Positions 37,818-52,774 of a DNA stretch of 64,000 nt are shown piece after piece. The notes beneath the pieces are model-generated. The model saw only the letters and a program-made list of their open reading frames with translations. It did not search any database and was not told the DNA's origin. Both the position numbers and the translations under genes were made by a program. This DNA is from Ancylobacter amanitiformis (GTDB lineage Bacteria > Pseudomonadota > Alphaproteobacteria > Rhizobiales > Xanthobacteraceae). The stretch covers positions 1 through 64,000 of the forward strand of contig NZ_JAUSVR010000001.1 in NCBI RefSeq assembly GCF_030814815.1, written 5' to 3'. Every line of letters starts with the position of its first letter. Position 1 is the stretch's first letter.

Positions 37818-39101
37818 TCAGCCGGCCCCCAGTCGCGACAGCACCGCGTCGGCTGCCCGCACCACGCCCGGATCGGCCTTCATCTGCGCCGAGATCGCGG
37901 CGAGGCGGCCTCGGAGCGCGTGGTCGTTCAGAAGCGCCTCGATCATGCCGCGCAACGTCTCGGGCGACCAGTCCGAGCGGTGCATGCTGCGCCCGGTGCC
38001 GGTATCCTGCGCGCGCCGGGCATTGTCGTGCCCGTCCCAGCAATAGGCCATCACCAGTGATGGCACGCCGTGGAACAGCGCCTCGCAGAAGGAATTGTTG
38101 CCGCCGTGATGGATGAACAGCGCCGACTGCGCGACGACGGAGGGCTGGGGAAACCAGCTGCCGAGAAACACATTGTCCGGCACTTCGCGATAGTCATCGA
38201 GAAACCCGCCGACATTCACGAAAAAGCGGGCCGGAATGGTCGCGAACACCGCGATCATGCGCCGGATCTGGTCGGTATCGATCGCGCCCAGGCTGCCGAA
38301 GCTCATATAGACCAGCGGCCCGTCATTGGCCGGCAGGGCCGGGGGATCGAACGGCACCTCGTCGCGCACGCAGCCTTCGAGAAAGGTGAAGCGATCCGCC
38401 GGCAGCGCCTCGGCGCGCGGATAGCGCACGGCGGAAGGCGCCAGAAGCAGGTTGAGCCAGTCGGAACATTCCAGAAACTGCCCCGGTGGCAGCGCGCGCA
38501 GCCCCCGGGCGCGACGGAAGGCGTTGTAGCGATGATGCGCGGGTCGCAGCGCGGCCGTGGCCGCCTTTTCCCAGAGGGCGCGGCCGACCGTGTCGTCGGG
38601 GCCAAGGCCCGAGAGATAGGGCGGCACGAGCGCATCCGGTATCTCGGTCTCGGCGCAGGACACCACCCGCGCCCAGGGCCGGCCGGAACGCAGGATCGCC
38701 GGAAACATGATGACGTTGTCCAGCAGGATGGCGTCCGGCTGGATCTGCCCGAGTAGCGCCTCCAGAGAATCGTCGACCGCGATGACCGTGTCGATGATCG
38801 CCTCCCAGGTCGGGGCGACATAGGCATCCAGCTGCGCCGCGGGCGTCAGGTCGAAATGGGCGAGATGCGTGTTGACGAAGTTCTGCCAGTAAGCCTCGCC
38901 ACGCGCCTGCGCCGGGCCCGCCTCGGGCTGGAGGTGATATTCCCGGAAGCCGTATTCGGCGAAGACGCCGGTAAAGCCGGGATGGCACAGGAAGACCGGC
39001 TCCGCGCCGCGCGCCGCCAGTTCCCGCGCGATGCCGACGCAGTTGAGCGCCGCGCCGAAGCTCGCCTCGGGGAAAAGGGCAATGACGGGAGGGCGCTTCA
39101 C
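37818..39101 (-). CDS. GT1-family glycosyltransferase A (UDP-sugar dependent, MGT-like)
   Basis: A 427-residue GT-B fold transferase of the kind that glycosylates small molecules. The acceptor half opens with 'VIALFPEASFGAALNCVGIA'. The donor half has 'VYMSFGSLGAIDT' and the nucleotide-sugar motif 'FIHHGGNNSFCEALFHGVPS', followed by 'YCWDGHDNARR'. It is a clear paralogue of the protein at 44151-45425, with matching motifs along the whole length and nearly equal size. It overlaps the end of the GntR gene by four bases and is transcribed with it, away from the transporter operon. It has no membrane segment, so the acceptor should be a soluble cytoplasmic small molecule; acceptor and sugar are unknown. 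Confidence 0.87.
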   Translation of the reverse strand: MKRPPVIALFPEASFGAALNCVGIARELAARGAEPVFLCHPGFTGVFAEYGFREYHLQPEAGPAQARGEAYWQNFVNTHLAHFDLTPAAQLDAYVAPTWEAIIDTVIAVDDSLEALLGQIQPDAILLDNVIMFPAILRSGRPWARVVSCAETEIPDALVPPYLSGLGPDDTVGRALWEKAATAALRPAHHRYNAFRRARGLRALPPGQFLECSDWLNLLLAPSAVRYPRAEALPADRFTFLEGCVRDEVPFDPPALPANDGPLVYMSFGSLGAIDTDQIRRMIAVFATIPARFFVNVGGFLDDYREVPDNVFLGSWFPQPSVVAQSALFIHHGGNNSFCEALFHGVPSLVMAYCWDGHDNARRAQDTGTGRSMHRSDWSPETLRGMIEALLNDHALRGRLAAISAQMKADPGVVRAADAVLSRLGAG

Positions 39102-40060
39102 GAAGCCGATCCTTTGCTGCGCGCGGGCGCCGGTTGCGCGCCCCGGAGCAGCGCCGACATGCCGCGCCCGGCGGTTTCGGGCCGGCGAATCCCGGAGCGA
39201 CGCAGATGCAGCACCATTTGATCGGCCGCAAGCTCCAACTGGTTGCGCTCCAGACTGTCGAGAATGTCGAGATGCTCCTCCATCGCCTGACGCTGGCGAA
39301 ACGGGGGCGGTGCGGCTTCCTTCTGCGCCATGCGCCGCAGCCGGTGATGCGCCAGAAGCGCGCCCTGCACGAAGCGGTTGGCCGAGCCTTCCGCGATCAT
39401 CACGTGGAAATCGATGTCGAGACGCTGGAACCCCGCCGCCGTCAGCCGCCCGTCGGGCAGCAGCTGAAAGGCGCGCATCTGCGCACGCAGGGCGCTGGCG
39501 CGGGTGGGATCGAGCCCAAATCCCGGCGTGAGAATGGCCTGCGGCTCCAGTGTCAGCCGGAAGGCGAAGCTCTCGGCGATCGCCGGCGGGGTATCGAGCA
39601 GCGGCTGAAAGGCCCAGGCGCTGCCCGGAAGCTGGGAGACGATGCCATCGCGCGACAGTATTTTTAGCGCATTCAGTACTTCAACACGGGAGGCAGAATA
39701 ACGCCGCGCCAGCGCGCTGACCGACTGCACGTCGGAAATGCGCCGCGCCGCGCGATCGGCCAGGATGCGGGTGAACAGACCCTGTTCGAGATCGGCAGCG
39801 GCAAGGCTCGCATCCGAGAGCCCGTCCTGCGCACTGCGCGCGAGAAAATAGCCCTCCTCTTCCTTCCATGTCAGAATATTGTTTTTTTCCAATATTTTAA
39901 AAGCAGACCGGATCGGCGTTCGGGACACGCCGCAGGCCTCGGCGATCGCCTGTTCCGGCATGTGCTCGCCCGCCTTCATGCCGCGATCGAGCGCCAGCGC
40001 CACGATCTGCTGCGCCAGCGACTGATGGTTGTGACGCGCGGCGCGGCGCCGTTCGGCCAT
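39098..40060 (-). CDS. GntR-family regulator with two N-terminal winged-helix domains
   Basis: A 320-residue FadR-subgroup regulator. The first winged helix (about 14-76) is standard: 'SLAQQIVALALDRGMKAGEH', 'GVSRTPIRSAFKILEKNNIL'. A second, similar segment follows at about 93-153: 'GLFTRILADRAA', 'VSALARRYSASRVEVLNALK', 'ILSRDGIVSQLPGSAWAF'. An FCD effector domain (about 160-300) ends the protein, with 'DIDFHVMIAEGSANRFV'. Usual FadR-type proteins have only one DNA-binding domain and 220-250 residues, so the extra 70 residues are explained by the duplication. It is divergent from the transporter operon it probably controls and co-transcribed with glycosyltransferase A. Confidence 0.88.
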   Translation of the reverse strand: MAERRRAARHNHQSLAQQIVALALDRGMKAGEHMPEQAIAEACGVSRTPIRSAFKILEKNNILTWKEEEGYFLARSAQDGLSDASLAAADLEQGLFTRILADRAARRISDVQSVSALARRYSASRVEVLNALKILSRDGIVSQLPGSAWAFQPLLDTPPAIAESFAFRLTLEPQAILTPGFGLDPTRASALRAQMRAFQLLPDGRLTAAGFQRLDIDFHVMIAEGSANRFVQGALLAHHRLRRMAQKEAAPPPFRQRQAMEEHLDILDSLERNQLELAADQMVLHLRRSGIRRPETAGRGMSALLRGAQPAPARSKGSAS

Positions 40061-40222
40061 GGATTTCCCCCGGAAGGCCCCTGCAGGGCGGGCAAGACAG
40101 GCAAAGAACCGTGAATACAGTTTGACGTATTTTTCCGCTTATACGTACTCTTGTCGTCAGCGGTCATCAAGAACCGCTCCTTCCGACACACCGCCTCCGG
40201 CGGGGGACAACAGGAGTTTGCA
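40061..40222. promoter_or_regulatory. Divergent GntR / transporter-operon control region with inverted repeat
   Basis: The 162-bp gap contains ACGTAT (40125-40130) and ATACGT (40141-40146), a perfect 6-bp inverted repeat with a 10-bp spacer in an AT-rich patch. TTGACG at 40122-40127 overlaps the left arm and could be the -35 of the rightward operon. The repeat is a good candidate for the double-winged-helix GntR regulator. The binding-protein gene has an excellent ribosome site (CAGGAG, seven bases before ATG). Confidence 0.5.
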
Positions 40223-41269
40223 ATGGTGGGAATTTCCTGCCGCGCGGCGGTCATTGCGGGCGTGGCGCTCAGCCTCACCGCGTTTTCCGCCGGCGCCGAT
40301 CCGCTGGTGATTTCGAACTGGGACGGCTATCTCGCCCCCGACGCGATCAAGAAGTTCAACGAGGCCAGCGGCAACAGCGCCGAACTGGTGCTGCACGCCA
40401 CCAACGAAGAGATCATGGGCAAGCTCATCGCCGCCAAGGGCAAGGGCTATGACGTGGTCTTCGTCTCCTCGCCCTTTGCCGAGGTGCTGCACAATCTGGG
40501 CCTGGCCGAGACGCTCGACCATGCCAAGATCCCCAATCTCGCCAATCTCTACCCGGAAGCGACGGTGCTCGCCCATGACAAGGGCAACAGCTTTTCCGTG
40601 CCCTATACCTGGGGCACCACGGGCCTGTGCTACCGCTCGGACCTGACCCCCGCGCCGACCTCGTGGAACGACCTGCTGAAGCCGACGGATGCGCTGAAGG
40701 GCAAGACCACGATGCTGGCGACCGACCGCTGGCTGCTGGCGGCGGGCTTCCTCGCCGAGGGCTATTCGGTCAACGAGACCGACAAGGCGAAGCTGGCGCA
40801 GACCCGCGACCTGCTGATCGCCGCCAAGAAGACGCTGCTCGCCTATGACGACACGACCTTTTATTCGAAGCTCGTCTCGGGCGAAGCCCAGCTGGTTCAG
40901 GCGTGGGATGGCTGGTGCAATTACGGCATCACCGAAAATCCGCAGATCAAGTATGTGATCCCGAAGGAAGGGTCGGATCTGTGGGTCGACACGATGGTGA
41001 TCCTCAAGTCCTCCGAGCACAAGGACGCCGCCTACGCCTTCGTCAATTCCATGCTCGACGGCGCCAACCACCGCTGGGCGGCGGAGAATATTCTCTACAA
41101 GGTGCCGAATAAGGCCGCGATGGACGGGCTCGATCCGAAGCTGCTGGAGAAATACCCGAACATGACGATGACGCCGGTCGAGCTTCTCAAGCATGAGCAG
41201 CTTCGCGATGTCGGCGCCGCGCAGCGCGATTATTCGCGCACGGTCTCCGAGATCAAGGCGTCGAACTGA
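40223..41269 (+). CDS. Polyamine-type ABC transporter substrate-binding protein (PotD/PotF-like), glycosylation locus
   Basis: A 348-residue periplasmic binding protein. ATG 40223 follows a strong CAGGAG; the longer frame from 40151 is rejected. A Sec signal peptide covers about 1-24 (ending FSAGA). 'PLVISNWDGYLAPDAIKKFN' and 'WGTTGLCYRSDL' are hallmarks of the family. It is the first gene of a rightward run that continues for 12.5 kb. The presence of an aminoaldehyde-type dehydrogenase and amine oxidase downstream makes an amine a reasonable ligand, but no residue-level assignment is possible by eye. Confidence 0.9.
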   Translation: MVGISCRAAVIAGVALSLTAFSAGADPLVISNWDGYLAPDAIKKFNEASGNSAELVLHATNEEIMGKLIAAKGKGYDVVFVSSPFAEVLHNLGLAETLDHAKIPNLANLYPEATVLAHDKGNSFSVPYTWGTTGLCYRSDLTPAPTSWNDLLKPTDALKGKTTMLATDRWLLAAGFLAEGYSVNETDKAKLAQTRDLLIAAKKTLLAYDDTTFYSKLVSGEAQLVQAWDGWCNYGITENPQIKYVIPKEGSDLWVDTMVILKSSEHKDAAYAFVNSMLDGANHRWAAENILYKVPNKAAMDGLDPKLLEKYPNMTMTPVELLKHEQLRDVGAAQRDYSRTVSEIKASN

Positions 41270-41310
41270 CCCCCGCGCCCCTCTGCCCCTCAACCATCGA
41301 GCGCCCGTGA

Positions 41311-41341
41311 GCCGATCCGATTGCGACGCGACCGGATCGGC
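41311..41341 (+). other. Hairpin between binding-protein and permease genes
   Basis: GCCGATCCG (41311-41319) and CGGATCGGC (41333-41341) form a perfect 9-bp stem with a 13-base loop, in the 113-bp gap after the binding-protein gene. There is no U tract. Its place matches the hairpin of the other polyamine-type operon (22068-22090) and suggests protection of the binding-protein message or partial attenuation. Confidence 0.5.
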
Positions 41342-41382
41342 GCGTGCTCCAGCGCCGGATCACCGAGCGGTGCCGTATCGTC

Positions 41383-42249
41383 ATGCAAGACCGTAAATCC
41401 CTGGTGCTGGTCGCGCCCGCCTTTGCGTGGCTGACCGCCTTCATGGTCGTGCCCTGCCTGCTGATCCTCGCGCTGGCCTTCTTCCGGCGCGGGATCTATG
41501 GCGGTATCGAATATGACATCACCTTCGAGAATTTCGCGATGGTGCTGGATCCGCTCTATGCGCGGATCTTCCTGAAATCCGCGTGGATTGCCGGGCTCGC
41601 CGCGCTCATCGCCGCCGTGCTCGGCTATGCCGCCGCCTATGCGATTGCGAGCATGCCGCGCCATCGCCAGCCGGCGCTGCTGTTTTTCGCCATCCTGCCG
41701 TTCTGGTCGAACTATCTCGTGCGCACCTATGCGTGGATCGTGCTGCTGAACCGTGAGGGACTGATTGTCGGCATCGCCCGTGCGCTCGGCTTTTCCGGCG
41801 AGATGCCGCAGATGCTCTATACCGAGGGCGCGGTGGTGCTGGGGCTGGTCTATAATTACCTGCCCTTCGTCATCCTCGCCGCCTACGCGCCGCTCTCACG
41901 GCTCAACCCGGAGATTTCGGAGGCCTCGCGCGATCTCGGCGCCGGGCGCTGGACGACATTCCGCCGGGTGATCCTGCCGATCACGCTGCCCGGCGTCGCC
42001 ACCGGCTTCGTCTTCGTGTTCGTGCTGTCGATCGGCAATTTCGTCACCCCGGCGCTTCTGGGCGGCGGCCAGTTCCAGATGATCGGCAACCTGGTCTACG
42101 ACCAGTTCCTCTCCGCCAATGACTGGCCGTTCGGCTCGGCGCTGTCGATGGTGCTGATCGCCGTCATGCTGGTGCTGCTCACGGCGCAGACCTTCGCCAA
42201 TGAGCGCGCCTCCACCGGCCGCCAGTCCGCGGAGCCGGCCGATGGCTGA
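41383..42249 (+). CDS. Polyamine-type ABC transporter permease (PotB/PotH-like), glycosylation locus
   Basis: A 288-residue six-helix permease. I prefer the ATG at 41383; GTG 41344 would add 13 residues next to the hairpin. The first helix is 'LVLVAPAFAWLTAFMVVPCL'. The EAA loop reads 'NPEISEASRDLGAGRWTTFR'. It overlaps the next permease gene by eight bases. Confidence 0.9.
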   Translation: MQDRKSLVLVAPAFAWLTAFMVVPCLLILALAFFRRGIYGGIEYDITFENFAMVLDPLYARIFLKSAWIAGLAALIAAVLGYAAAYAIASMPRHRQPALLFFAILPFWSNYLVRTYAWIVLLNREGLIVGIARALGFSGEMPQMLYTEGAVVLGLVYNYLPFVILAAYAPLSRLNPEISEASRDLGAGRWTTFRRVILPITLPGVATGFVFVFVLSIGNFVTPALLGGGQFQMIGNLVYDQFLSANDWPFGSALSMVLIAVMLVLLTAQTFANERASTGRQSAEPADG

Positions 42250-43033
42250 TCGCCTCAACATGCGGGTGATGCTGCTGATCCTCAGCCTCGTCTTCGCCTT
42301 TCTCTACCTGCCGATCTCCGTGCTGGTCGGGCTGTCCTTCAATGCCGGCGGCATGCCCACCGCCTGGACCGGCTTTTCGCTGAAATGGTATGGCGCGCTG
42401 TTCGCCAACCGGGACATCCTGCGCGCCGCCGGCAACACGCTGGTCGTCGGGCTGGTCTCCGCCGGCATCGCGACGATCCTGGGCACGCTGCTGGCGATCG
42501 GCATCGAAATCCGCCGGCGCAAGGGCCGCTTCCTGGAGACGCTGGTCTTCGCGCCGATGGTCATTCCCGACATCGTGCTGGCGATCGCGCTGCTGAGCTT
42601 CTTCTCGCTGCTGGACGTGCGGCTGGGGCTGCACACCGTCATCCTGGCGCATGTGGTGTTCAACCTCGCCTTCGTCTGCGCGGTGGTGCGGGCGCGGTTG
42701 AAATCCTTCGACTGGTCGATCGTCGAGGCCTCCGCCGATCTGGGCGCCTCGACGCTCACCACCCTGCGCCGCGTGGTGCTGCCGGCGCTGGCGCCCGCCA
42801 TCATCGCGGGAGGGCTGCTGGCCTTCACGTTGTCGGTGGACGAGTTCATCATCGCCTTCTTCACCGCCGGGCCCGAGCGTGCCTCGATCACCCTGCCGAT
42901 GCAGATCTACGCCATGATCCGCTTCGGCGTGACGCCCGAGATCAATGTGCTGGCGACGCTGGTGATCGGGTTTTCCCTCGTCACCCTGGCCCTGTCGCAG
43001 CGCCTCAACCGCGGAGGCCTGCCGGGCCAATGA
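42242..43033 (+). CDS. Polyamine-type ABC transporter permease (PotC/PotI-like), glycosylation locus
   Basis: A 263-residue permease; ATG 42242 lies within the end of the previous gene. First helix 'MLLILSLVFAFLYLPISVLV', then 'LSFNAGGMPTAWTGFSLKWY' as in PotI. EAA loop 'DWSIVEASADLGASTLTTLR'. Its stop overlaps the ATPase start by four bases, so the transporter genes are coupled. Confidence 0.92.
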   Translation: MADRLNMRVMLLILSLVFAFLYLPISVLVGLSFNAGGMPTAWTGFSLKWYGALFANRDILRAAGNTLVVGLVSAGIATILGTLLAIGIEIRRRKGRFLETLVFAPMVIPDIVLAIALLSFFSLLDVRLGLHTVILAHVVFNLAFVCAVVRARLKSFDWSIVEASADLGASTLTTLRRVVLPALAPAIIAGGLLAFTLSVDEFIIAFFTAGPERASITLPMQIYAMIRFGVTPEINVLATLVIGFSLVTLALSQRLNRGGLPGQ

Positions 43034-44085
43034 CCACGCTGCTTTCCATTCGCAATGTCGAGAAGCATTTCGGCCGGGTGCGCGCCGTCAATGGCGTGTC
43101 CCTCGACATTCGCGAGAACGAGTTCTTCGCCCTGCTCGGCTCCTCCGGCAGCGGCAAGACCACGCTGCTGCGCATGCTGGCGGGGTTCGAGACGCTGAGC
43201 GCCGGGCAGATCCTGCTGAACGGGCGCGACATTTCCAACGTGGCGCCCAATCACCGCCCGGTGAACCTGATGTTCCAGTCCTATGCGCTGTTTCCGCATA
43301 TGAGCGTGGCGCAGAACATCGCCTATGGGCTGGAGATGGAGAAGCTGCCCCGCGCCGAGATCCGCGCGCGCGTCGACGAGATCCTCTCCACCATCCAGCT
43401 TTCCGCGCTGGCGGCGCGCAAGCCCGAGCAATTGTCCGGCGGCCAGCGCCAGCGTGTGGCTCTGGCGCGCGCGCTGGTGAAGCGGCCGCAATTGCTGCTG
43501 CTCGACGAACCGCTCGGCGCGCTGGACAAGAAGCTGCGCAGCGAGATGCAGCTGGAGCTGAAGCGGATCCAGCACCAGTTCGGCATCACCTTCGTGATCG
43601 TCACCCATGATCAGGAGGAAGCGCTGGTCATGGCCGATCGCATCGCCATTCTCCAGCACGGCGAACTCGTGCAATGCGCCCCGCCGCGCGAGGTCTATGA
43701 ACACCCGGCCACCCGTTTCGCGGCCGAATTCATCGGGGTGATGAACTTCATCCCCGTGCAGCGCGACGGCGCAAAGCTGACGGCGGCCGATGGCAGCGCC
43801 ATCCACGCCGCGATCCCCGAGGGGCTGGGAGCGGACATCGTCGCCGCGGTGCGGCCGGAGCGGCTGCGGCTCGATGCCGAAAACTGCGACAACCGGCTCT
43901 CGGGGCGGATCCTCGCCACCGCCTATCACGGGCTCGACCTGCAGGTGCATGTCGCCATCCCCGCCATGGCCAAGCCCATGGTCTGCCGGGTGACGGCGGA
44001 TGCCGCCGAGGCGCGCGATTTCAAGGCGGACGACATCCTCACCCTCGGCTGGAACAGCGCCGACACGCGCCTGTTCGCCGCCTGA
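43030..44085 (+). CDS. Polyamine-type ABC transporter ATP-binding protein (PotA/PotG-like), glycosylation locus
   Basis: A 351-residue ATPase with Walker A GSSGSGKTTLL near 37-47, Q-loop 'MFQSYALFPHMSVAQNIAYG', signature LSGGQRQRVALARA, Walker B LLLLDEPLGALDKK and 'THDQEEALVMADR'. A TOBE domain forms the C terminus. It completes the second importer of this class in the window; the two ATPases are clearly related but belong to separate operons. Confidence 0.94.
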   Translation: MTTLLSIRNVEKHFGRVRAVNGVSLDIRENEFFALLGSSGSGKTTLLRMLAGFETLSAGQILLNGRDISNVAPNHRPVNLMFQSYALFPHMSVAQNIAYGLEMEKLPRAEIRARVDEILSTIQLSALAARKPEQLSGGQRQRVALARALVKRPQLLLLDEPLGALDKKLRSEMQLELKRIQHQFGITFVIVTHDQEEALVMADRIAILQHGELVQCAPPREVYEHPATRFAAEFIGVMNFIPVQRDGAKLTAADGSAIHAAIPEGLGADIVAAVRPERLRLDAENCDNRLSGRILATAYHGLDLQVHVAIPAMAKPMVCRVTADAAEARDFKADDILTLGWNSADTRLFAA

Positions 44086-44150
44086 CGACCATGACGACGC
44101 CCGCAAAGCCAACGCCCGCAAAGGGCGATCCCGACCAGAGGTACCAGCAC

Positions 44151-45425
44151 ATGGAACAGAAGACCTTCGCCTTCTTCCCCGAAGCGGCCTTCGGCCCCGC
44201 CCTGAACTCCGTGGGCATCGCGCAGGCGGTCACCGCGCTGGGCCACAAGGCGGTGTTCCTGTCCGATCCCGGCTTTGTCTCGGTCTATGAGGGCTATGGC
44301 TTCGAGGCGCATCCCGTCGCGCTCTCCGAGCCCATGCCGCCCGAGCAGATGGCCAAGTTCTGGGAAGACTTCATCAATGGCCACATCCCGAACTTCTCGA
44401 AGAAGCCGATCGACCAGCTCGACAACTACGTCAAGGAATGCTGGGAGGCCATCGTCTCCAGCGCCACATGGGCGCAGAAGGACCTGCCCGGCGTGCTCGC
44501 GCGCATCAAGCCGGACGTGATCGCGGTCGACAACGTGATCCTGTTCCCGGCCATCAAGCAGTTCGGCGTGCCGTGGGTGCGCATCATCTCCTGCTCGGAG
44601 AACGAGATCGAGGACGAGGCGATTCCGCCGCATCTGTCGGGCATGGGCGAGCATGACCGGGAAGGCCACGCCGCCTTTCGCGCGAAGTTCAACGAGGTCA
44701 TCCAGCCGATCCACGACGCGTTCAATGCCTTCCTCGCGGAGAATGACGAAGCGCCGTACCCGCTCGGCCAGTTCTTCGAGGCCTCGCCCTATCTCAACCT
44801 GCTGCTCTATCCCGAGCAGGCGAAATACCAGCGCGAGGTGCCGCTCGACCCCGCGCGCTTCCAGTATCTGGAAGGCTGCGTGCGCAAGGACGAGCCCTAC
44901 ACCGTGCCGAGCTTCGGCGCGAACAATGACGGCCCGCTGCTCTACATCTCCTTCGGCTCGCTGGGCTCCGGCGATACCGAGTTGCTGAAGCGGCTGATCG
45001 CGTTGGTCGGCAAGACGCGCTATCGCGCGCTGGTCAATGTCGGCGACTACATGGCGAGCTATACCGACGTGCCCGACAATGTGGTGCTCGGCAGCTGGTT
45101 CCCGCAGCCTTCGGTGATCCCGCAGGTCGATGCGGTGATCCACCATGGCGGCAACAACTCCTTCACCGAATGCCTCTATTTCGGCAAGCCGGCGATCATC
45201 ATGCCCTATGTCTGGGACGGGCATGACAACGCGATGCGCGTCGAGGAGACCGGCCATGGCTTCCGCTCCGAGCGCTACGAGTGGAGCGACGCGGAGCTGA
45301 TCGCCAAGATCGAGGCGTGCCTCGCCGATCCCGCGATCAAGGCCAAGCTCGCTACCACCTCCGCCCACATGCAGAGCTGCGAGGGGCCGAAAAAGGCCGC
45401 GCGCCTGCTCACCTCCCTGGTGTGA
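44151..45425 (+). CDS. GT1-family glycosyltransferase B (UDP-sugar dependent, MGT-like)
   Basis: A 424-residue paralogue of the transferase at 37818-39101. I chose the ATG at 44151, which has AGAGG nine bases upstream and lines up with the paralogue's N terminus (FFPEAAFGPALNSVGIA versus LFPEASFGAALNCVGIA). ATG 44091 would add a 20-residue, low-complexity extension. The donor motif is 'VIHHGGNNSFTECLYFGKPA' followed by 'YVWDGHDNAMRVEETG'. It lies directly after the transporter ATPase, in the same operon as a sugar kinase and a uridylyltransferase that could make its donor. The likely acceptor is the imported compound; this is inference from order and co-transcription. Confidence 0.88.
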   Translation: MEQKTFAFFPEAAFGPALNSVGIAQAVTALGHKAVFLSDPGFVSVYEGYGFEAHPVALSEPMPPEQMAKFWEDFINGHIPNFSKKPIDQLDNYVKECWEAIVSSATWAQKDLPGVLARIKPDVIAVDNVILFPAIKQFGVPWVRIISCSENEIEDEAIPPHLSGMGEHDREGHAAFRAKFNEVIQPIHDAFNAFLAENDEAPYPLGQFFEASPYLNLLLYPEQAKYQREVPLDPARFQYLEGCVRKDEPYTVPSFGANNDGPLLYISFGSLGSGDTELLKRLIALVGKTRYRALVNVGDYMASYTDVPDNVVLGSWFPQPSVIPQVDAVIHHGGNNSFTECLYFGKPAIIMPYVWDGHDNAMRVEETGHGFRSERYEWSDAELIAKIEACLADPAIKAKLATTSAHMQSCEGPKKAARLLTSLV

Positions 45426-45430
45426 TCGAC

Positions 45431-45790
45431 ATGACCAATCTCACGAGTTCCGCGCCGCACATCCACAACGCCACAACTTACGACGACCTCGCGGACTGGG
45501 GCGCGCAGCCCGACGCCATCGAGGGCGCTTCCCATTCCACCGGCCGGTTGCTGTTCAAGGGGCCGGGCAACTCGCCGGAGACCGGCATCTGGGTGTGCAC
45601 GCCCGGCCGCTGGAAAATCGCCGTGCCGCGCGACGAGTTCTGCCACTTCGTCTCCGGCCGCGCCCGCTACACCTCGGTGACTGGTGAGGTGACCGAGGTC
45701 GAGGCCGGCACCTGTGTCGTCTTCCCCGCCGGCTATGAGGGCGAGGCCGAGGTGATCGAGACCATCCGCAACATCTACATGCTGGCCTGA
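45431..45790 (+). CDS. Small cupin (DUF861 / EutQ-like), copy 1
   Basis: A 119-residue single-domain cupin (beta-barrel). Core: 'ETGIWVCTPGRWKIAVPRDE', 'FCHFVSGRARYTSVTGEVTE', then 'GTCVVFPAGYEGEAEVIETI'. The H of EFCH and the glutamate before it are the usual metal-site positions of cupin motif 1. It lies five bases after glycosyltransferase B. Related small cupins occur beside amine-oxidation genes, with unknown roles; isomerase, hydrolase or ligand-binding activity is possible. Confidence 0.85.
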   Translation: MTNLTSSAPHIHNATTYDDLADWGAQPDAIEGASHSTGRLLFKGPGNSPETGIWVCTPGRWKIAVPRDEFCHFVSGRARYTSVTGEVTEVEAGTCVVFPAGYEGEAEVIETIRNIYMLA

Positions 45791-45802
45791 GAGGGAAGAA
45801 CA

Positions 45803-46147
45803 ATGAAAACGCCCGTGATGAGGAATCCCCTCGACATCACCGATGTGGTCGATTGGGGCATCATCCCGACCATGATCGAAGGCCAGTCCCATGTATCGGG
45901 CCAGGTGCTGCACAAGGGGCCGAACGGCCAGTCCGAATGCGGGCTGTGGATCTGCACGCCGGGCAAGTGGGACTGCCACGTCACTTCGGACGAGTTCTGC
46001 CATTTCCTGGCGGGGCGCTGCACCTATGTGCATGAGAGCGGTGACGTGATCGAGATCACCCCCGATACCGCCGCCTTCTTCCCCAAGGACTGGAAGGGCG
46101 TCTGCACGGTCCATGAGACCATCAAGAAGGTCTACATGATCCGATGA
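45803..46147 (+). CDS. Small cupin (DUF861 / EutQ-like), copy 2
   Basis: A 114-residue cupin, paralogous to the preceding gene: 'ECGLWICTPGKWDCHVTSDE', 'FCHFLAGRCTYVHESGDVIE', 'TAAFFPKDWKGVCTVHETIK'. GAGGGAAGAACA precedes the ATG. The two copies have diverged in the N-terminal third but keep the WGxxP-IEG-H-SG motif order. Tandem duplication with retention of both copies suggests a heteromer or two related substrates. Confidence 0.85.
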   Translation: MKTPVMRNPLDITDVVDWGIIPTMIEGQSHVSGQVLHKGPNGQSECGLWICTPGKWDCHVTSDEFCHFLAGRCTYVHESGDVIEITPDTAAFFPKDWKGVCTVHETIKKVYMIR

Positions 46148-47193
46148 TGCCGGCCGTGACCTGCCGCCCCCGCCTCGATCCGCCGGGCATCACCTTTCTC
46201 ACCCGCCTCGGCCAGTCCGGCGTGCCGCTTGTGGCGCTGCCGGGCGACGCCTCGGCCCGCCGCTACCATCGGCTGGCGGGGGCCGGCCTGCTGCTGATGG
46301 AGGACCGCACCGATCCGCAGGGCTTCGCCTCCTATGTCCGCGTCGCGCGGCATCTGAACGGGCTCGGCCTGTCGGCGCCGCGCGTCGAGGCGACGGATCC
46401 GGTGCATTGCCTGGCGCTGATCGAGGATTGGGGCGACGCCACCTATGCGCGGCGCCTTGGCGAAGGCCGGTCGGAAGCGGAACTCTATGGCGTGGCGGTC
46501 GACGCATTGGCGCATCTGCACCGCGCGCCCAACGGCCCGGCGGTCGCGCAACCGCGCTACGACCACGCGACATGGCTGGATGAGTTGCGCCTGTTTGCCG
46601 ACTGGTTCGCCCCGGCCATCGCCCCGGATCTGGACCGCGAGGGTTTCCCCGCGCGCTTCCTCGCGCTGTGGGACGACGCGTTGCGCCCCGTCTGCGACCG
46701 GTTCGAGACGCTGGTGCTGCGCGATTTCCACGTCGACAACCTGATGGCGCTGGAGGATCGCGCGGGCGTGCGGCGCTGCGGCCTGCTGGATTTTCAGGAC
46801 GCGGCCCTGGGCCCGCGCGAATACGACCTCGTCTCGCTGCTGCAGGATGCCCGGCGGGATCTCGCGCCGGGGCTGGAGGAGGCCATGCTGCAACGCTACA
46901 TCGCCGCGCTCCCTTCGGGCCCGGGCGGCGAGGCGGCGATCCGCGCGCGCTATCATCTTCTCGGCGCCCAGCGGCACGCGCGCATCGCGGGCGTGTTCGT
47001 CCGCCTCTGCCTGCGCGACGGCAAGGCGCATTACCTCGCATGGCTGCCCCGCGTTCTCGGGCAGCTGGAGGCGGCACTGAAGGCCGCCGGACTCACCGCC
47101 ATTGCCGACCTGCTTGCCGTGGAACTGCCCGACTGGCGCGCCCGCGGCGTGGCGATGGCACGGCGTCTCGGCGCCGCCGGCACGCTCGCTTGA
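46144..47193 (+). CDS. Anomeric sugar kinase, AmgK-like (aminoglycoside phosphotransferase fold)
   Basis: A 349-residue APH-fold kinase. It carries the hallmarks of AmgK, the enzyme that phosphorylates N-acetylmuramate and GlcNAc at carbon 1: 'LPGDASARRYHRL' (33-45), catalytic loop RDFHVDNL (193-200) and 'GLLDFQDAALGPREYDLVSL' (213-232) with D216 as metal ligand. In Pseudomonas, AmgK works with the uridylyltransferase MurU in cell-wall recycling. Here the partner uridylyltransferase in the operon is of GlmU type instead, and no other recycling gene is present. I infer it makes a hexosamine (or hexose) 1-phosphate for the glycosyltransferases. It overlaps cupin 2 by four bases. Confidence 0.82.
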   Translation: MMPAVTCRPRLDPPGITFLTRLGQSGVPLVALPGDASARRYHRLAGAGLLLMEDRTDPQGFASYVRVARHLNGLGLSAPRVEATDPVHCLALIEDWGDATYARRLGEGRSEAELYGVAVDALAHLHRAPNGPAVAQPRYDHATWLDELRLFADWFAPAIAPDLDREGFPARFLALWDDALRPVCDRFETLVLRDFHVDNLMALEDRAGVRRCGLLDFQDAALGPREYDLVSLLQDARRDLAPGLEEAMLQRYIAALPSGPGGEAAIRARYHLLGAQRHARIAGVFVRLCLRDGKAHYLAWLPRVLGQLEAALKAAGLTAIADLLAVELPDWRARGVAMARRLGAAGTLA

Positions 47194-47204
47194 AGGAAGA
47201 CCGA

Positions 47205-48764
47205 ATGTCCAGCTCCGCGATCATCGACCCCGCCATGCCCGATCCCGCCATGCCCGATCTCGCCAGCCCGCGTTACTACCTCGCCCCCGGCCTGCGCCTG
47301 TCCGCCGGCCCCACGCATCGCGTGGTCGACCCGGCGACGCTGGAGGAGGTCGGCGCCCGCGCCGAGGTCACGCCGGACGAAGTCGTCGAGGTGCTGGCGC
47401 GGGTGAATGCGGCGCAGAAGCTGTGGAACCGTACCGACGCCAAGAGCCGGGCGCGGATGCTGCACCAGCTCGCCAACCGCATCGAGACCGCCGATTTCAC
47501 CGAGTGCGCCATCCTGATGAGCCGCGAGATGGGCAAGCCCTATCCCGAGGCCATCGGCGAACTCGCCAATGTCGCGCCGATCTTCCGCTATTACGCCGAG
47601 ATGGCGCGCGACGATGCCGGCAAGATCGCCGGCACCACGCAGATCGGCTCGACCCAGTACGCCCGCTACGAGGCGCTGGGCGTCTCGGTCCACATCATGC
47701 CGTTCAATTTCCCCATCCTCCTGATGTGCTGGACGGTCGCGGCCTCACTCGCCGCCGGCAATGGCTGCATCGTCAAGCCGGCCGAGGCGACGACGCTCTG
47801 CACGCTGGACTTCATGAAGGTATTCGACGAACTGCCGGCGGGGCTGGTCGCCTGCCTGCCGGGCGGGGCGGAGGTGGGCCGGGCGCTTGTCGACAGCGAG
47901 CGCACGCATGCCGTCGCCTTCACCGGCTCCGTAGCTGCGGGCCGTGCGGTCGCGATGGCGGCGGCCTCCCGGCTGAAACCGGCGGTGATCGAGGCCGGTG
48001 GCTCCGACCCGATGATCATCGCCGCCTCGGCGCCGCTCGATGTCGCGGCGGCGGGCGCGGTGACGGGCGCCTTCCACATGTCCGGCCAGGTCTGCACCTC
48101 CACCGAGCGGATCTATGCGGTGGACGCCATCCATGACGATTTCGTCCGCGCCTTTGTCGCCCGCACGAAACAGCTGCGCATCGGCAACGGGCTGGAGAGG
48201 AACGAGATCGGCCCGCTGGTCGCCAAGGCCGCGCGCGACAAGGTGATGCGCCTTGTCGCCGACGCCGTGGCCAAGGGCGCGCGCGTGGAGTGCGGCGGGC
48301 GCATCCCCGAGGGGCTGGAGACCGGCTGGTTCTATGCGCCCACCATTCTGACCGGCTGCACGTCCGACATGGAGATCCTGCACGAGGAGACCTTCGGCCC
48401 CGTCGTCGCGGTGTGCCGCGTGGCGGATTTCGATGCGGCGGTGGCGGCCGCCAATGACAGCCCGTTCGGCCTCGGCGCCTCCATCTTCACGACCTCGCTG
48501 GAGGAGGCCATCGAGGCCTCCGAGCGGCTGGAGGCCGGCATGGTCTGGGTGAACAACCCGATGATCGACAATGACGCCCTGCCGTTCGGCGGCTGGAAGG
48601 CCTCCGGCATGGGCCGCGAACTGGGCCGGCAGGGTCTGGATGCCTTCCGGCGCTCCAAGATGGTGGTGATGGATCACAAGCCGCAGATTCACGGCTGGTG
48701 GTATCCCTATCCCGATGACTGGTTCCTCGATCGCGCGGGAACCGGCGGTCGCAAGCATGTCTGA
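47205..48764 (+). CDS. Aldehyde dehydrogenase family protein 1
   Basis: A 519-residue NAD(P)-dependent aldehyde dehydrogenase; ATG 47205 follows AAGGAAG. The catalytic cysteine is C297 in MSGQVCTSTER and the general base E263 in VIEAGGSDP (most relatives read ELGG). The cofactor region is 'MPFNFPILLMCWTVAASLAA'. The N-terminal DPAMPDPAMPDLASP is a short internal repeat. The two tandem ALDH genes differ in type, so they probably act on different aldehydes or at different steps. It is in line with the rest of the operon, 11 bases after the kinase. Confidence 0.92.
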   Translation: MSSSAIIDPAMPDPAMPDLASPRYYLAPGLRLSAGPTHRVVDPATLEEVGARAEVTPDEVVEVLARVNAAQKLWNRTDAKSRARMLHQLANRIETADFTECAILMSREMGKPYPEAIGELANVAPIFRYYAEMARDDAGKIAGTTQIGSTQYARYEALGVSVHIMPFNFPILLMCWTVAASLAAGNGCIVKPAEATTLCTLDFMKVFDELPAGLVACLPGGAEVGRALVDSERTHAVAFTGSVAAGRAVAMAAASRLKPAVIEAGGSDPMIIAASAPLDVAAAGAVTGAFHMSGQVCTSTERIYAVDAIHDDFVRAFVARTKQLRIGNGLERNEIGPLVAKAARDKVMRLVADAVAKGARVECGGRIPEGLETGWFYAPTILTGCTSDMEILHEETFGPVVAVCRVADFDAAVAAANDSPFGLGASIFTTSLEEAIEASERLEAGMVWVNNPMIDNDALPFGGWKASGMGRELGRQGLDAFRRSKMVVMDHKPQIHGWWYPYPDDWFLDRAGTGGRKHV

Positions 48765-48777
48765 GAAGGTCCGCGCC

Positions 48778-50265
48778 ATGCACAGGACGCAGCTTTATAT
48801 CGACGGCGCCTTCGCCGATGCGGAAGCCGGCGGTACGTTCCTCGCCATCGATCCCGCCACCGAGCAGGCCTTTGCCGAGGTCGCGGCCGGGCAGGGCGCC
48901 GATATCGACCGTGCCGTGCGCGCGGCGCGGCGCGCTTTTGACAGCGGCGCGTGGTCCGGCCTCTCCGGCACGGTGCGCGCCGGCCATCTCCGCCGGATCG
49001 CGCAGGGGCTGCGCGACCGGCTGGCGGAGATCGCGGCACTGGAAGTGCGCGACAATGGCAAGCCGCTTCCCGAGGCGGAATGGGACGTGGGCGATGCCGC
49101 CTTCACCTTCGACTATTATGCCGGCCTCGCCGAGGCCGAGGACAGCCGCCCGGACGAGGAGGTCGATGTCGGCGATGCGCGCTTCCTCGCGAGCATCGCC
49201 CGCGAGCCGCTGGGCGTGGTGGGCGCCATCACACCGTGGAACTACCCGCTGCTGATGGCGGTGTGGAAGGTGGCGCCCGCGCTGGCGGCGGGCTGCACCA
49301 TCGTGCTGAAGCCTTCCGAAATCTGCTCCCTCTCCTGCGCCACGCTGGCGCAGATCATCCATGCCGCCGGCCTCCCGCCCGGTGTGTTCAACCTCGTGAC
49401 CGGCACCGGCCCGGAGGCGGGGCAGCCGCTCGCCGATCATCCGCTCTGCGACAAGATCGCCTTCACCGGATCGGTGGCCACGGGCCGCAAGGTGATGATG
49501 GCGGCGGCGGCCGGCATCCGCACCGTGGCGCTGGAACTTGGCGGCAAGTCGCCCTTCCTCGTCTTCGCCGATTGCGACATCGAGAAAGCCGTCGAGTGGA
49601 TCCTGTTCGGCATCTTCTGGAACAAGGGCGAGGTCTGCTCCGCCACCTCCCGCGTGCTGGTGGAGCGCAGCCTCTATCCGCGCCTGCTGGCACGGCTGAA
49701 AGAGGCGGCGGAGGCGATCCCCATCGGCGCGGGGCTGGAGCCGGGGGTGAAGCTCGGGCCCATCGTCTCCCGCGGGCAGTACGAGAAGATCCTCGCCGCC
49801 ATCGCCTCCGGCAAGGCGTCCGGCGCGCGGCTGGTCTCGGGTGGCGAGCGGCCGGCCGGCCGGCCGACGGGATATTTCCTGCAACCCACCATCTTCGCCG
49901 ACGTGCCTGTTGAGGCCAGCATCTGGCGGGAGGAGATCTTCGGCCCGGTCGTGTGCGTCAACCCGTTCGACACCGAGGAGGAGGCGCTCGCGCTCGCCAA
50001 TGACAGCGCGTTCGGCCTCGCCGGCGCGGTCATGTCGGACGATCTGGAGCGCTGCGAGCGGGTGGCGCGCCGGCTGCGCGCCGGCATCGTCTGGATCAAC
50101 TGCTCGCAGCCCACCTTCGTCCAGCTGCCCTGGGGTGGCACCAAGACCTCCGGCATCGGCCGCGAACTGGGTCGCGCCGGTTTTGAGGCCTATTTCGAGA
50201 CGAAGCAGATCACCCGCTTCGATCCGGCCGAGAGCTGGGGCTGGTATCTCGCGGGTGGCCAATGA
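48778..50265 (+). CDS. Aldehyde dehydrogenase 2 (betaine aldehyde / aminoaldehyde dehydrogenase type)
   Basis: A 495-residue ALDH. ATG 48778 with AGAAGGT upstream is preferred; ATG 48757 would overlap the previous stop. 'PWNYPLLMAVWKVAPALAAG', 'VALELGGKSPFLVFADCDIE' and 'FWNKGEVCSATSRVLVER' with the catalytic Cys resemble betaine aldehyde and omega-aminoaldehyde dehydrogenases of plants and bacteria. It would oxidise an amino- or trimethylammonio-aldehyde to the acid. This agrees with the polyamine-type importer and the FAD amine-oxidase-like protein of the operon. It overlaps the next gene by four bases. Confidence 0.9.
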   Translation: MHRTQLYIDGAFADAEAGGTFLAIDPATEQAFAEVAAGQGADIDRAVRAARRAFDSGAWSGLSGTVRAGHLRRIAQGLRDRLAEIAALEVRDNGKPLPEAEWDVGDAAFTFDYYAGLAEAEDSRPDEEVDVGDARFLASIAREPLGVVGAITPWNYPLLMAVWKVAPALAAGCTIVLKPSEICSLSCATLAQIIHAAGLPPGVFNLVTGTGPEAGQPLADHPLCDKIAFTGSVATGRKVMMAAAAGIRTVALELGGKSPFLVFADCDIEKAVEWILFGIFWNKGEVCSATSRVLVERSLYPRLLARLKEAAEAIPIGAGLEPGVKLGPIVSRGQYEKILAAIASGKASGARLVSGGERPAGRPTGYFLQPTIFADVPVEASIWREEIFGPVVCVNPFDTEEEALALANDSAFGLAGAVMSDDLERCERVARRLRAGIVWINCSQPTFVQLPWGGTKTSGIGRELGRAGFEAYFETKQITRFDPAESWGWYLAGGQ

Positions 50266-51005
50266 CCGCCCGCCCGACGCACGCGATCGCCGCCATCGTG
50301 CTGGCCGCCGGCAAGGGCAGCCGCATGGGATCGGAGCTGCACAAGGTGCTGCACCCGCTCCGGGGCAAGCCGATGCTCGGGCACCTGCTCGACAGTCTCG
50401 CCCATATCGATGCCGCGCGCATCGTGCTGGTGGTCGGCGCCGGGCGCGAGCAGATCGAGCGTGCCTATCCCGATACGCCGAAGGTCGTGCAACGCGAACA
50501 GCGCGGCACGGCCGATGCGGTGCGCACGGCCGAGGCGGAGCTGGGCGATTTCCCCGGCACGGTGCTCATCCTCTATGGCGACGTGCCGCTGATCGCGCCC
50601 GCCACGATGCGCACGCTCTGCGCGGCGGTGGCGGGAGATGCCGTGCTCGCCGTGCTGGGCTTCCGCCCCGGTGATACCCGCGCCTATGGCCGGCTGGTCA
50701 CCGCGCCCGATGGCGGCCTCGCCCGCATCGTCGAGCATGCGGATGCCAGCGAGGAGGAGCGCCGGATCGACCTGTGCAATTCCGGCGTCATGGCGGTGCG
50801 GGGCGAGGTTCTGTTCCCCTTGCTGGCGCGCGTGGGCTGCGCCAATGCCAAGGGGGAATACTATCTCACCGATATCGTGGCGCTGGCGCGCGGCGATGGG
50901 CATCGCGTCGCCATCGTCGAGGCGGCGGAGCTTGAGGTGAGCGGCGTCAATTCGCGTGAGGAACTCGCCGCGCTCGAAGCCCGTCTCGCGGATGCCGCCT
51001 CATGA
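50262..51005 (+). CDS. Free-standing GlmU-type N-terminal uridylyltransferase
   Basis: A 247-residue nucleotidyltransferase equal to the pyrophosphorylase half of GlmU, lacking the left-handed beta-helix acetyltransferase domain. Motifs: LAAGKGSRM (14-22) with K28, QREQRGTADAV (77-87), YGDVPL (105-110) with metal ligand D107, 'EYYLTDIVALA' (199-209) and 'VSGVNSREELA' with N230, the second metal ligand. E. coli GlmU uses D105 and N227. It should couple UTP with a hexosamine 1-phosphate such as GlcNAc-1-P to form the UDP-sugar. A dedicated copy in a catabolic operon, with an anomeric kinase and glycosyltransferases, indicates a local supply of donor sugar. Confidence 0.87.
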   Translation: MTARPTHAIAAIVLAAGKGSRMGSELHKVLHPLRGKPMLGHLLDSLAHIDAARIVLVVGAGREQIERAYPDTPKVVQREQRGTADAVRTAEAELGDFPGTVLILYGDVPLIAPATMRTLCAAVAGDAVLAVLGFRPGDTRAYGRLVTAPDGGLARIVEHADASEEERRIDLCNSGVMAVRGEVLFPLLARVGCANAKGEYYLTDIVALARGDGHRVAIVEAAELEVSGVNSREELAALEARLADAAS

Positions 51006-52393
51006 GCGAACACGGCCCCTCGCTAGCGGGCATCGCCCTGCGCCCCTACTGGTTCGACACCGTGCCGCCCGAGCCGGCCCGCCCGGCGCTGGCCGGCGAT
51101 CTGCGCGTCGATCTCGCCATTGTCGGTGGCGGCTTCACGGGCCTGTGGACGGCCCTGCAGGCGCGCAAGCGCGACCCGCAGGCACGTATCGCGCTGGTCG
51201 AGGCGGGCCGCACCGGCAATGCCGCCTCCGGGCGAAATGGCGGCTTCTGCGCGCCATCCATCTCGCACGGGGTCGGCAATGCGCTGCGCCGCTGGCCGCG
51301 GGAGGCGGAGACGCTGGTGCGGCTCGGCCGCGAAAATCTCGACGGTTTCGCGCAGGACGTCGCCGCGCACGGACTGGCCATCGAATTCGAGCGCGCGGGC
51401 AAGCTGACCCTCGCCGCGACGCCGTGGCAGGTGGAGGGGCTGAACGCCATGGCGGCCAATTATCGCCGCTTCGGCATCGCGGGCGAGCGGCTCTCGGGCG
51501 ACGCGCTGGCGGCAAAGCTCGACAGCCCGGTCTATCGGGCCGGGTTTTTCGAGCCCAATTACGCGCTGGTCAACCCGGCGAAAACCGTCGCGGAACTGCG
51601 CCGCGTGGTGCTCTCGCTCGGCGTTGACATCCACGAGCAAACCCCCGTCACGGCGCTGCGGCACACCGGTTCGGGCATCGAGCTGGTCACGCCGGGCGGG
51701 GTGATGCATGCCGCGCGGGCCGTGCTGGCGACCAATGCGGCGGTGCCGCTGCTGGCGAGGCTGAAGCCGGCGGTCATCCCCATCTACGACTACGCCATCA
51801 TGACCCGCCCGCTCGACGCCGACGAACTGGCCGCCATCGGCTGGACCGGGCGCCATTCGGTGGCCGATAGCGGCAACCAGTTCCATTACATCCGCAAGAC
51901 CGCCGATAACCGCATCCTGTGGGGCGGCTATGATGCCGTCTATCATTTCGGCTCGCGCCGCGACGCCGCCTTGCTGGACCGGGCGGAGAGCTATGACCGG
52001 CTGGCACGCCATTTCCGCCGCGCGCTGCCCCCGCTCGCTCATGTGCCGTTCACCCATGCCTGGGGCGGCATCATCGACACCTCGGCCCGCACCACGTTCT
52101 TCGCCGGGCTCGCCTTCGGGGGACGGCTCGCCTATGCCATGGGCTTCACCGGGCAGGGCGTCTCCGCCAGCCGCTTCGCCGCGCGGACGATGCTCGACCT
52201 GCTGGCCGGGGAGGAGACCGAGCGCACGCGGCTCGCCATGCTGCGCAGGCGGCCCTTTCCCTTCCCGCCCGAGCCGCTGCGCTGGCTCGGCATAAGCTGG
52301 GCGCAGGCGGGGTTGGCCAGCGAGGACCGCACCGGGCGGCGCTCGCGATTCAACCGGCTGCTCGATGCCTTCGGCGTCGGTTTCGATTCATAG
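51002..52393 (+). CDS. FAD-dependent amine/amino-acid oxidoreductase (DadA/PuuB-like)
   Basis: A 463-residue DAO-family flavoprotein. The FAD-binding motif AIVGGGFTGLWTAL lies at about 39-52; 'GNAASGRNGGFCAPSISHG' and the C-terminal 'AMGFTGQGVSASRFAARTML' are characteristic of gamma-glutamylputrescine oxidase (PuuB)-like enzymes. It would oxidise a primary or secondary amine to an imine or aldehyde, feeding the aldehyde dehydrogenases. Since PuuB acts on a gamma-glutamylated amine, this homologue may act on an amine carrying a sugar instead. Overlap with the previous gene is four bases. Confidence 0.88.
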   Translation: MSEHGPSLAGIALRPYWFDTVPPEPARPALAGDLRVDLAIVGGGFTGLWTALQARKRDPQARIALVEAGRTGNAASGRNGGFCAPSISHGVGNALRRWPREAETLVRLGRENLDGFAQDVAAHGLAIEFERAGKLTLAATPWQVEGLNAMAANYRRFGIAGERLSGDALAAKLDSPVYRAGFFEPNYALVNPAKTVAELRRVVLSLGVDIHEQTPVTALRHTGSGIELVTPGGVMHAARAVLATNAAVPLLARLKPAVIPIYDYAIMTRPLDADELAAIGWTGRHSVADSGNQFHYIRKTADNRILWGGYDAVYHFGSRRDAALLDRAESYDRLARHFRRALPPLAHVPFTHAWGGIIDTSARTTFFAGLAFGGRLAYAMGFTGQGVSASRFAARTMLDLLAGEETERTRLAMLRRRPFPFPPEPLRWLGISWAQAGLASEDRTGRRSRFNRLLDAFGVGFDS

Positions 52394-52405
52394 GAGGTGC
52401 CCGCC

Positions 52406-52774
52406 ATGGGAGAGCTCACAATGTCCCCCCGCCATGTCATCGCCTTCGACCCCGACACCGTGCCCGCGCGCGAAATCCTGACCGATGACCCGGCCGTGGT
52501 CGACACGCCGTTCCGCGCGGAAAGCTGGCGCCATTTCACCCATGCCGAGAAGGGCGCGCTGGCCGGCATCTGGCAGGCGGGGCCGCATCTGGAGCGCGTC
52601 GACTGCGATTATGACGAGATGTGCCACCTGCTGGAAGGCGAGGTGCGCCTGACCGATGCCGAGGGCCATGCCCGCATCTTCGGGCCGGGCGACAGCTTCA
52701 TAGTGGCGCGCGGCTTCAAGGGCACGTGGGAGAACCTGTCCCATGTGCGCAAGGTGTATTTCATCCTGACCTGA
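52406..52774 (+). CDS. Small cupin (DUF861 / EutQ-like), copy 3
   Basis: A 122-residue cupin; the ATG at 52406 follows a perfect AGGAGG seven bases upstream. 'LAGIWQAGPHLERVDCDYDE', 'MCHLLEGEVRLTDAEGHARI' and 'GDSFIVARGFKGTWENLSHV' place it with copies 1 and 2 but as a more distant member. It is the last gene of the operon, followed 20 bp later by a strong hairpin. Confidence 0.85.
   Translation: MGELTMSPRHVIAFDPDTVPAREILTDDPAVVDTPFRAESWRHFTHAEKGALAGIWQAGPHLERVDCDYDEMCHLLEGEVRLTDAEGHARIFGPGDSFIVARGFKGTWENLSHVRKVYFILT

Follow-up and report, generated by a model that had tools for sequence, protein, structure and literature searches.

A conserved glycosyltransferase-cupin operon in Ancylobacter amanitiformis with a possible sugar carrier for amine catabolism

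Glutamate is a known carrier in the catabolism of amines. In the gamma-glutamyl putrescine (Puu) pathway, import, masking of the amine, a flavin adenine dinucleotide (FAD) oxidase, and an aldehyde dehydrogenase are brought together in one operon, and in the N-methylglutamate pathway of methylamine use, a glutamate carrier is attached to the amine, the amine is oxidized, and the carrier is returned. In AmgK/MurU cell-wall salvage, as outlined for Caulobacter (PMC13046382), a sugar kinase and a uridylyltransferase bring free sugar to uridine diphosphate (UDP)-sugar. Here we describe a 15-gene divergent locus of Ancylobacter amanitiformis, at positions 37818 to 52774 of the window (the 64,000-nucleotide stretch analyzed, positions 1 to 64,000 of contig NZ_JAUSVR010000001.1), that holds elements reminiscent of all three. 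It encodes a Pot-type ATP-binding cassette (ABC) importer, two GT1-like glycosyltransferases (GTA and GTB), three cupins (CUP1 to CUP3), an AmgK-like kinase (KIN), a GlmU-type uridylyltransferase (NTP), two aldehyde dehydrogenases (ALD1 and ALD2), a DAO-family FAD oxidase (OX), and a regulator (REG). A first-pass annotation had listed these genes and proposed that a sugar stands in for glutamate; the inventory is borne out, gene by gene, by open reading frames and family matches. The most economical account, and in our view the best single one, is that the operon catabolizes an imported amine with a sugar as recyclable carrier or mask, a reading of the sequence that we hold with about even confidence.

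The likeness to Puu is at the family level only, an FAD amine oxidase (PF01266) and aldehyde dehydrogenases (PF00171) being present. The difference is that no PuuA-type ligase occurs among the 15 genes, where two glycosyltransferases and a sugar kinase-uridylyltransferase set are found instead. No description of a sugar-carrier amine pathway appears among the open-licence literature matches listed (titles and abstract starts), in line with the earlier statement that no described pathway with this set was known to the first-pass annotation.

Relatives were collected with GTB (44151 to 45425, plus strand) as the query. From the 188 relatives that a scan of one genome per species gave, the best 80 were kept; to these we added 6 of 15 annotated plasmid records and 18 stretches from sampled genomes. 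A GTB match above thresholds is present in 104 loci, or 100 once identical GTBs are removed (79 from the scan, 6 from annotated plasmids, and 15 from sampled genomes). These 100 distinct loci lie in Alpha- and Gammaproteobacteria and in two haloarchaea; the hosts include many soil and marine bacteria, and salt-loving archaea carry the block in part. GTB identity is 68 to 96% across the 80 scan loci kept and 58% for the two haloarchaeal copies, both on plasmids. Two further plasmid records, L157 and L158, were inspected and hold no counted gene; in L157, on a Pseudomonas frederiksbergensis plasmid, a glycosyltransferase relative lies in three pieces amid type VI secretion genes.

Gene order and content are repeated in dozens of genomes, far beyond chance. 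Counting orthologues by identity and coverage thresholds within 12.5 kb, we find CUP2 (a DUF861 cupin, 45803 to 46147, plus strand) beside GTB in 93 of the 100 loci, so that glycosyltransferase and cupin form the heart of the module. Among the 70 loci with at least 5 kb of upstream and 7 kb of downstream flank, CUP2 occurs in 67, ALD1 in 60, the four importer genes in 57 each, REG in 54, CUP1 in 53, and GTA in 49, followed by KIN (34), OX (26), ALD2 (24), CUP3 (14), and NTP (11). Importer, glycosyltransferase, cupin, and aldehyde dehydrogenase are conserved as a module in distant lineages, whereas KIN, OX, and NTP, which the first-pass annotation counted in the set, are optional.

Could an ordinary amine catabolic operon have captured a glycosyltransferase-cupin pair that serves another role, for instance in the synthesis of a glycosylated osmolyte or signal? 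The GTB-CUP2 pair does stand without an importer or ALD1 orthologue in five loci (L078, L080, L083, L092, and L144). Another aldehyde dehydrogenase lies within 5 kb in L078 and L092, and an aldehyde ferredoxin oxidoreductase is near the pair in L083; in L088, whose downstream flank is short, no amine gene was recognized. Against capture, CUP2 is present in all 56 core loci, defined by importer plus ALD1, and within these GTB follows PotA and precedes the cupins while GTA sits with the regulator. We regard this explanation as quite unlikely.

The optional genes tend to occur together. KIN is found in 24 of the 26 loci with OX versus 10 of the 44 others (Fisher test, 9e-9, uncorrected for kinship), and all 11 NTP loci carry both KIN and OX. 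Kinase and uridylyltransferase track the oxidase in this way, and each is missing from many loci. In a GTB tree with 71 rows (a quick tree with some long branches), KIN needs 9 changes, OX 7, and NTP 8. Across four independent pairs differing in OX, KIN changes the same way in 3.2, the opposite way in 0.0, and not at all in 0.8 (averages).

GTA (37818 to 39101, minus strand) and GTB are about 45% identical, and both match the UDPGT C-terminal donor-binding domain (PF00201; 47.5 and 42.8 bits, cutoff 19.5). The N-terminal His of GT1 enzymes is catalytic. With its place set by alignment with UGT203A2, this His is absent from 102 of 102 distinct GTB sequences (one more has a gap), being replaced by Pro in 101 and Ala in 1, and from 54 of 54 GTA sequences, which carry Ala (44) or Ser (10). 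At the end of the donor motif, DG likewise takes the place of DQ in all 103 distinct GTB and all 54 GTA sequences. An enzyme that has lost its catalytic base would suit a nucleophilic acceptor, for instance an amine; the change fits an amine acceptor without proving one. The Gly in place of Gln might open space for an N-acetyl group.

By sequence, the solved structures that come closest to GTB are those of the spider-mite enzymes UGT203A2 (1.2e-52) and UGT202A2 (1.1e-26). UGT203A2 retains both features (FGHVNA and GDQHDN), in contrast to GTB (FGPALN and WDGHDN). The spider-mite UDP-glycosyltransferase (UGT) family is said to derive from bacteria, and the GTB lineage may be near the bacterial donor. 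A Streptomyces relative (38% identity) has also lost the His and keeps the Gln of the DQ pair; no module gene is found in its annotated 21 kb.

Resemblance to these UGTs and to macrolide-inactivating glycosyltransferases raises the possibility of detoxification, in which glycosylation would inactivate a toxic compound (an amine, aminoaldehyde, or alkaloid) for clearance by the oxidative genes, and the sugar is a conjugate that is not recycled. The importer-less GTB-CUP2 pairs and the 36 of 70 loci without KIN would suit such a role. However, 57 of the 70 loci have an importer upstream of GTB, kinase and uridylyltransferase track the oxidase, and the 68 to 96% identity of GTB in the kept loci seems unlike that of a promiscuous detoxification enzyme. 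Inactivation of macrolides or rifamycin as the specific role was rejected, the macrolide-family models scoring 124 and 93.6 bits, far below the cutoff of 260. Detoxification in general we consider unlikely.

On the sugar side, KIN (46144 to 47193, plus strand), of the APH family, best matches AmgK models at 204.8 bits, below the equivalog cutoff of 500. Kinase copies were sought in 40 genomes, comprising 24 of the 29 glycosyltransferase-bearing genomes found and 16 Ancylobacter genomes without the glycosyltransferase. All 16 of the latter have one AmgK-like gene, whereas 10 of the 24 glycosyltransferase-bearing genomes have a second, sited in the glycosyltransferase locus; the locus kinase is an extra copy beside an AmgK-like gene elsewhere. 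In a first kinase tree, a single branch splits 22 locus from 21 housekeeping rows (Shimodaira-Hasegawa-like approximate likelihood ratio test [SH-aLRT], 98). As this tree was without the Pseudomonas housekeeping copies, the remaining copies were added in a fuller tree, in which, once L061 is left out, one branch again parts 47 locus from 40 housekeeping rows (SH-aLRT, 98). L061 is a long-branch row from a metagenome-assembled genome, and both trees are quick ones with several long branches. The Pseudomonas locus kinases group with other locus kinases, far from the Pseudomonas housekeeping ones. Cell-wall salvage was rejected as the kinase's role on this split and on the presence of the extra copy, which answers in part the concern that the enzymes act on cell-wall substrates. 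The locus differs from AmgK/MurU salvage further in that its uridylyltransferase is GlmU-like and in that the A. amanitiformis genome, outside the locus, holds another AmgK-like gene as well as a GlmU.

NTP (50262 to 51005, plus strand; 247 amino acids [aa]) is a stand-alone domain. Its GlmU profile match ends at position 242 of 453, and it has no left-handed helix acetyltransferase domain. The 12 positions taken as the GlmU uridine and sugar site are all conserved in 12 of 12 sequences. The GlmU elsewhere in the genome is 46% identical to NTP over the N-domain.

The haloarchaea have other genes at the corresponding place. In Natrialba magadii (plasmid pNMAG01, L106), a ROK protein and a phosphohexomutase adjoin the glycosyltransferase-cupin-aldehyde dehydrogenase set; the best models are ATP-dependent glucokinase for the former (158.9 bits, cutoff 500) and archaeal GlmM for the latter (287.7 bits, cutoff 439). 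Natronorubrum aibiense has the same arrangement, with proteins 74 and 82% identical to those of N. magadii. Such a pair would be an alternative route to sugar 1-phosphate. Taken together, the families point tentatively to N-acetylglucosamine (GlcNAc) as the sugar in bacteria and perhaps to glucose in haloarchaea.

These data also bear on the idea that the substrate of KIN and NTP is an amino alcohol and not a sugar, in the manner of choline kinase/phosphocholine cytidylyltransferase pairs, with the glycosyltransferase unrelated to both. APH-family kinases and nucleotidyltransferases do include amino-alcohol enzymes. Yet KIN lies nearest to AmgK models, the residues of the GlmU uridine and sugar site are retained in NTP, and haloarchaea carry ROK and hexomutase genes instead, so that we judge this idea very improbable.

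N. magadii also qualifies the proposed exchange of glutamate for a sugar. A glutamine synthetase-family gene lies about 7 kb from the N. magadii glycosyltransferase, so that a sugar does not simply replace glutamate in that locus. Relatives of this gene occur in 4 of the 100 loci, one being N. magadii itself and the others showing 29 to 35% identity (blastp, 1e-10, 60% coverage). The L106 module is flanked by a set of glutamine synthetase-family, amidotransferase, aminotransferase, and FAD-oxidoreductase genes, with a histidine-utilization cluster on its other side.

On the amine side, the importer comprises the substrate-binding protein SBP (40223 to 41269), PotB-like (41383 to 42249) and PotC-like (42242 to 43033) permeases, and a PotA-like ATPase (43030 to 44085), all on the plus strand. 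PotA exceeds the cutoff of the polyamine subfamily model TIGR01187 (389.7 versus 355.6 bits), PotB and PotC are assigned by position and by each other's conserved place in relatives rather than by family scan, and SBP, a PotD family match, falls below the PotD equivalog cutoff (118.4 versus 582). In an alignment of SBP with PotD, numbered by the PotD ligand residues, the equivalents of Trp34, Tyr37, Trp229, Trp255, Tyr293, and Asp257 are kept, while those of Glu171 and Gln327 are changed. The retained aromatics and Asp257, with Glu171 and Gln327 changed, suggest a ligand that is probably an amine, as the importer family also indicates, but not classical spermidine.

Both ALD1 (47205 to 48764, plus strand) and ALD2 (48757 to 50265, plus strand) match PF00171 and are best matched by a betaine-aldehyde dehydrogenase model, each below its cutoff; the two aldehyde dehydrogenases of the first-pass annotation share this best match. 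The oxidase OX (51002 to 52393, plus strand), described initially as PuuB-like, is a DAO family member (PF01266), with no PuuB among the ten NCBIfam models listed and with TIGR03329, a putative aminophosphonate oxidoreductase, as the best of them (243.9 bits, cutoff 632.8). Glycine and sarcosine oxidases come closest to its predicted structure (mean predicted local distance difference test [pLDDT], 82.4, with weaker parts), and the fold list includes L-amino acid deaminase, L-proline dehydrogenase, NikD, and iminodiacetate oxidase (rank 49).

Oxidases of N-substituted amines among these neighbors, such as sarcosine and iminodiacetate oxidase, would also fit the import of a ready-made sugar-amine conjugate (a glycosylamine or an Amadori- or opine-like compound), from which the glycosyltransferase or a cupin would remove the sugar for capture by the kinase, leaving the amine to be oxidized. 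This scheme accounts jointly for importer, kinase, and oxidase. The 11 loci that have a uridylyltransferase within the operon point instead to sugar addition, not removal, and the binding protein belongs to the polyamine family; we think the scheme improbable.

Other loci carry different amine genes. L146 and L147 have another DAO oxidase that replaces or adds parts, L070 has a Pot-type binding protein beside a diverged glycosyltransferase, and L087 has a 2-aminoethylphosphonate (AEP)-type binding protein with Pot-like genes beside the glycosyltransferase. A saccharopine dehydrogenase-like gene, which might substitute for KIN or OX, is present in 8 of the 100 loci, and KIN too is found in 2 of the 8 core loci that bear it. 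Diverged glycosyltransferase-cupin genes lie beside OYE/ETF/GcvT-like genes in L145 and OYE-like genes in L144, and L097 has a GcvT-like gene, with a trimethylamine monooxygenase about 6 kb off (834.3 bits, cutoff 675). In these three loci, N-demethylation-type genes adjoin glycosyltransferase-cupin genes in place of the Pot importer. Some diverged loci thus adjoin genes of this kind, and the carrier of the N-methylglutamate pathway itself is glutamate.

The first-pass annotation also called for release of the sugar, but no glycosidase was recognized among the 15 genes of the divergon, the neighbors of other loci having been scanned in part. CUP2 is a candidate. Its Cys51, Cys58, Cys101, and Glu64 are invariant in 50 aligned sequences, and it is predicted to be a cupin with high confidence (mean pLDDT, 96.8). 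DUF861 and EutQ structures head its fold list, the best solved match being 3bcw (DUF861, function unknown), so any CUP2 chemistry is a guess. PpnP, a small cupin nucleoside phosphorylase, cleaves N-glycosidic bonds; as it shows that a small cupin can do so, CUP2 could perform the release. PpnP stands at rank 7 of the fold list (E = 1.1e-5), a weak similarity.

A sugar-carrier pathway can be assembled from these parts. The gene families and their co-conservation are observed, whereas the reactions, the identity of the sugar (GlcNAc or glucose), and its release are what we infer. The Pot-type importer would bring in a small amine, which may be a diamine or an amino alcohol. GTB would then transfer a sugar from UDP-sugar onto the amine nitrogen to give a secondary amine, with GTA serving a second site or substrate. 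The DAO oxidase, or a different amine-oxidizing system in other loci, would oxidize the glycosylated amine, and ALD1/ALD2 would convert the aldehyde to the acid. The N-glycosidic bond might be opened by CUP2 or spontaneously, after which KIN would add a phosphate to the anomeric carbon of the released sugar and NTP, being of GlmU type, would remake UDP-sugar.

The conserved module, the tracking of kinase, oxidase, and uridylyltransferase, and the haloarchaeal substitutes favor this pathway, as do the extra kinase copy set apart from housekeeping AmgK, the retained GlmU site of NTP, the missing His of the glycosyltransferases, the fold neighbors of OX, and the amine-related genes beside diverged glycosyltransferases. 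Several points weigh against it, beginning with the want of a recognized glycosidase. The loci were gathered with GTB itself as the query, and the scan relatives were limited to the best 80 of 188. KIN, OX, and NTP are optional (34, 26, and 11 of 70), and in 16 of the 56 core loci, KIN, OX, and the saccharopine dehydrogenase-like gene are all absent, L146 and L147 being among these 16 with their other DAO oxidase. GTB-CUP2 pairs occur without importer or ALD1. The Fisher test ignores kinship, and four to six pairs are too few for significance in the pair test. The fuller kinase tree, when L061 is included (48 locus and 40 housekeeping rows), needs two changes and not one. Finally, the Streptomyces relative shows that His loss is not module-specific.

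The remaining genes complete the divergon. REG, a GntR/FCD transcriptional regulator (39098 to 40060, minus strand; PF00392 and PF07729), lies next to GTA, and the plus strand runs SBP-PotB-PotC-PotA-GTB-CUP1-CUP2-KIN-ALD1-ALD2-NTP-OX-CUP3, including the DUF861/EutQ-like cupin CUP1 (45431 to 45790; PF05899) and the DUF861 cupin CUP3, a family match (52421 to 52774; a start at 52397 is possible). As had been noted, almost all genes overlap or lie a few bases apart: with the earliest starts, gaps on this strand are -8 to 12 bases, except for 113 bases between SBP and PotB. For GTB, a start at 44091 is possible, but 44151 (424 aa) is likelier, as in many relatives the longest GTB reading frame spans 425 to 430 aa, and the gap before GTB is then 65 bases. 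From the spacing, the plus-strand genes would form a single transcript.

A conserved operator/promoter-like site, AATACAGTTTGACGTA (40114 to 40129, plus strand), lies between REG and SBP and overlaps a TTGACG -35-like hexamer. The form AATACA-NN-TTGACGTA, over a -35-like hexamer and with up to two mismatches, is found upstream of SBP in 36 of the 59 loci with both REG and SBP; the copy in L033 falls just outside the counted range. In the A. amanitiformis genome, this is the sole exact copy, and with two mismatches there are 6 hits versus 7 for the control. No second target is apparent, which suggests a self-contained system.

Outside the divergon, an MGH1-like glycoside hydrolase gene (32869 to 35112) and an adjoining 911-aa open reading frame (35040 to 37775; no Pfam match at E = 1e-5) lie upstream, on the strand opposite to GTA. 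Because of this placement, both were set aside as candidates for the release enzyme. Immediately 3' of the operon (52833 to 58922) are genes for a TetR regulator, one or more HlyD-type adaptors, and a resistance-nodulation-division (RND) efflux pump.

The distribution of the module is patchy. GTB is present in 11 of 151 related genomes (E = 1e-20) and in 13 of 385 class members and 8 of 398 phylum members (E = 1e-60), the A. amanitiformis genome being counted each time. As the module is patchy and plasmid-borne copies exist, horizontal transfer is the likely reason, and the operon is probably accessory and horizontally moving. G+C content is even along the window (0.64 to 0.71 in 4-kb steps), with no sign of a recent island.

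More broadly, and as a tentative proposal that we think has less than an even chance, a His-less GT1 enzyme might load, and a Cys-bearing DUF861 cupin unload, a recyclable sugar carrier of amines as a general strategy in bacteria and haloarchaea. Interchangeable modules would then reactivate the sugar (an anomeric kinase with a uridylyltransferase, or a glucokinase with a mutase) and oxidize the amine (DAO oxidase, saccharopine dehydrogenase-like enzyme, or OYE/ETF/GcvT). If the sugar carrier is real, it would be a second currency for amine catabolism beside glutamate, and it would assign a function to a glycosyltransferase-cupin pair of marine and soil bacteria. It would also offer a testable reaction for the His-less GT1 enzyme and the DUF861 cupin with invariant cysteines, and it would place in a bacterial context a family for which spider-mite UGTs are the nearest relatives of solved structure.

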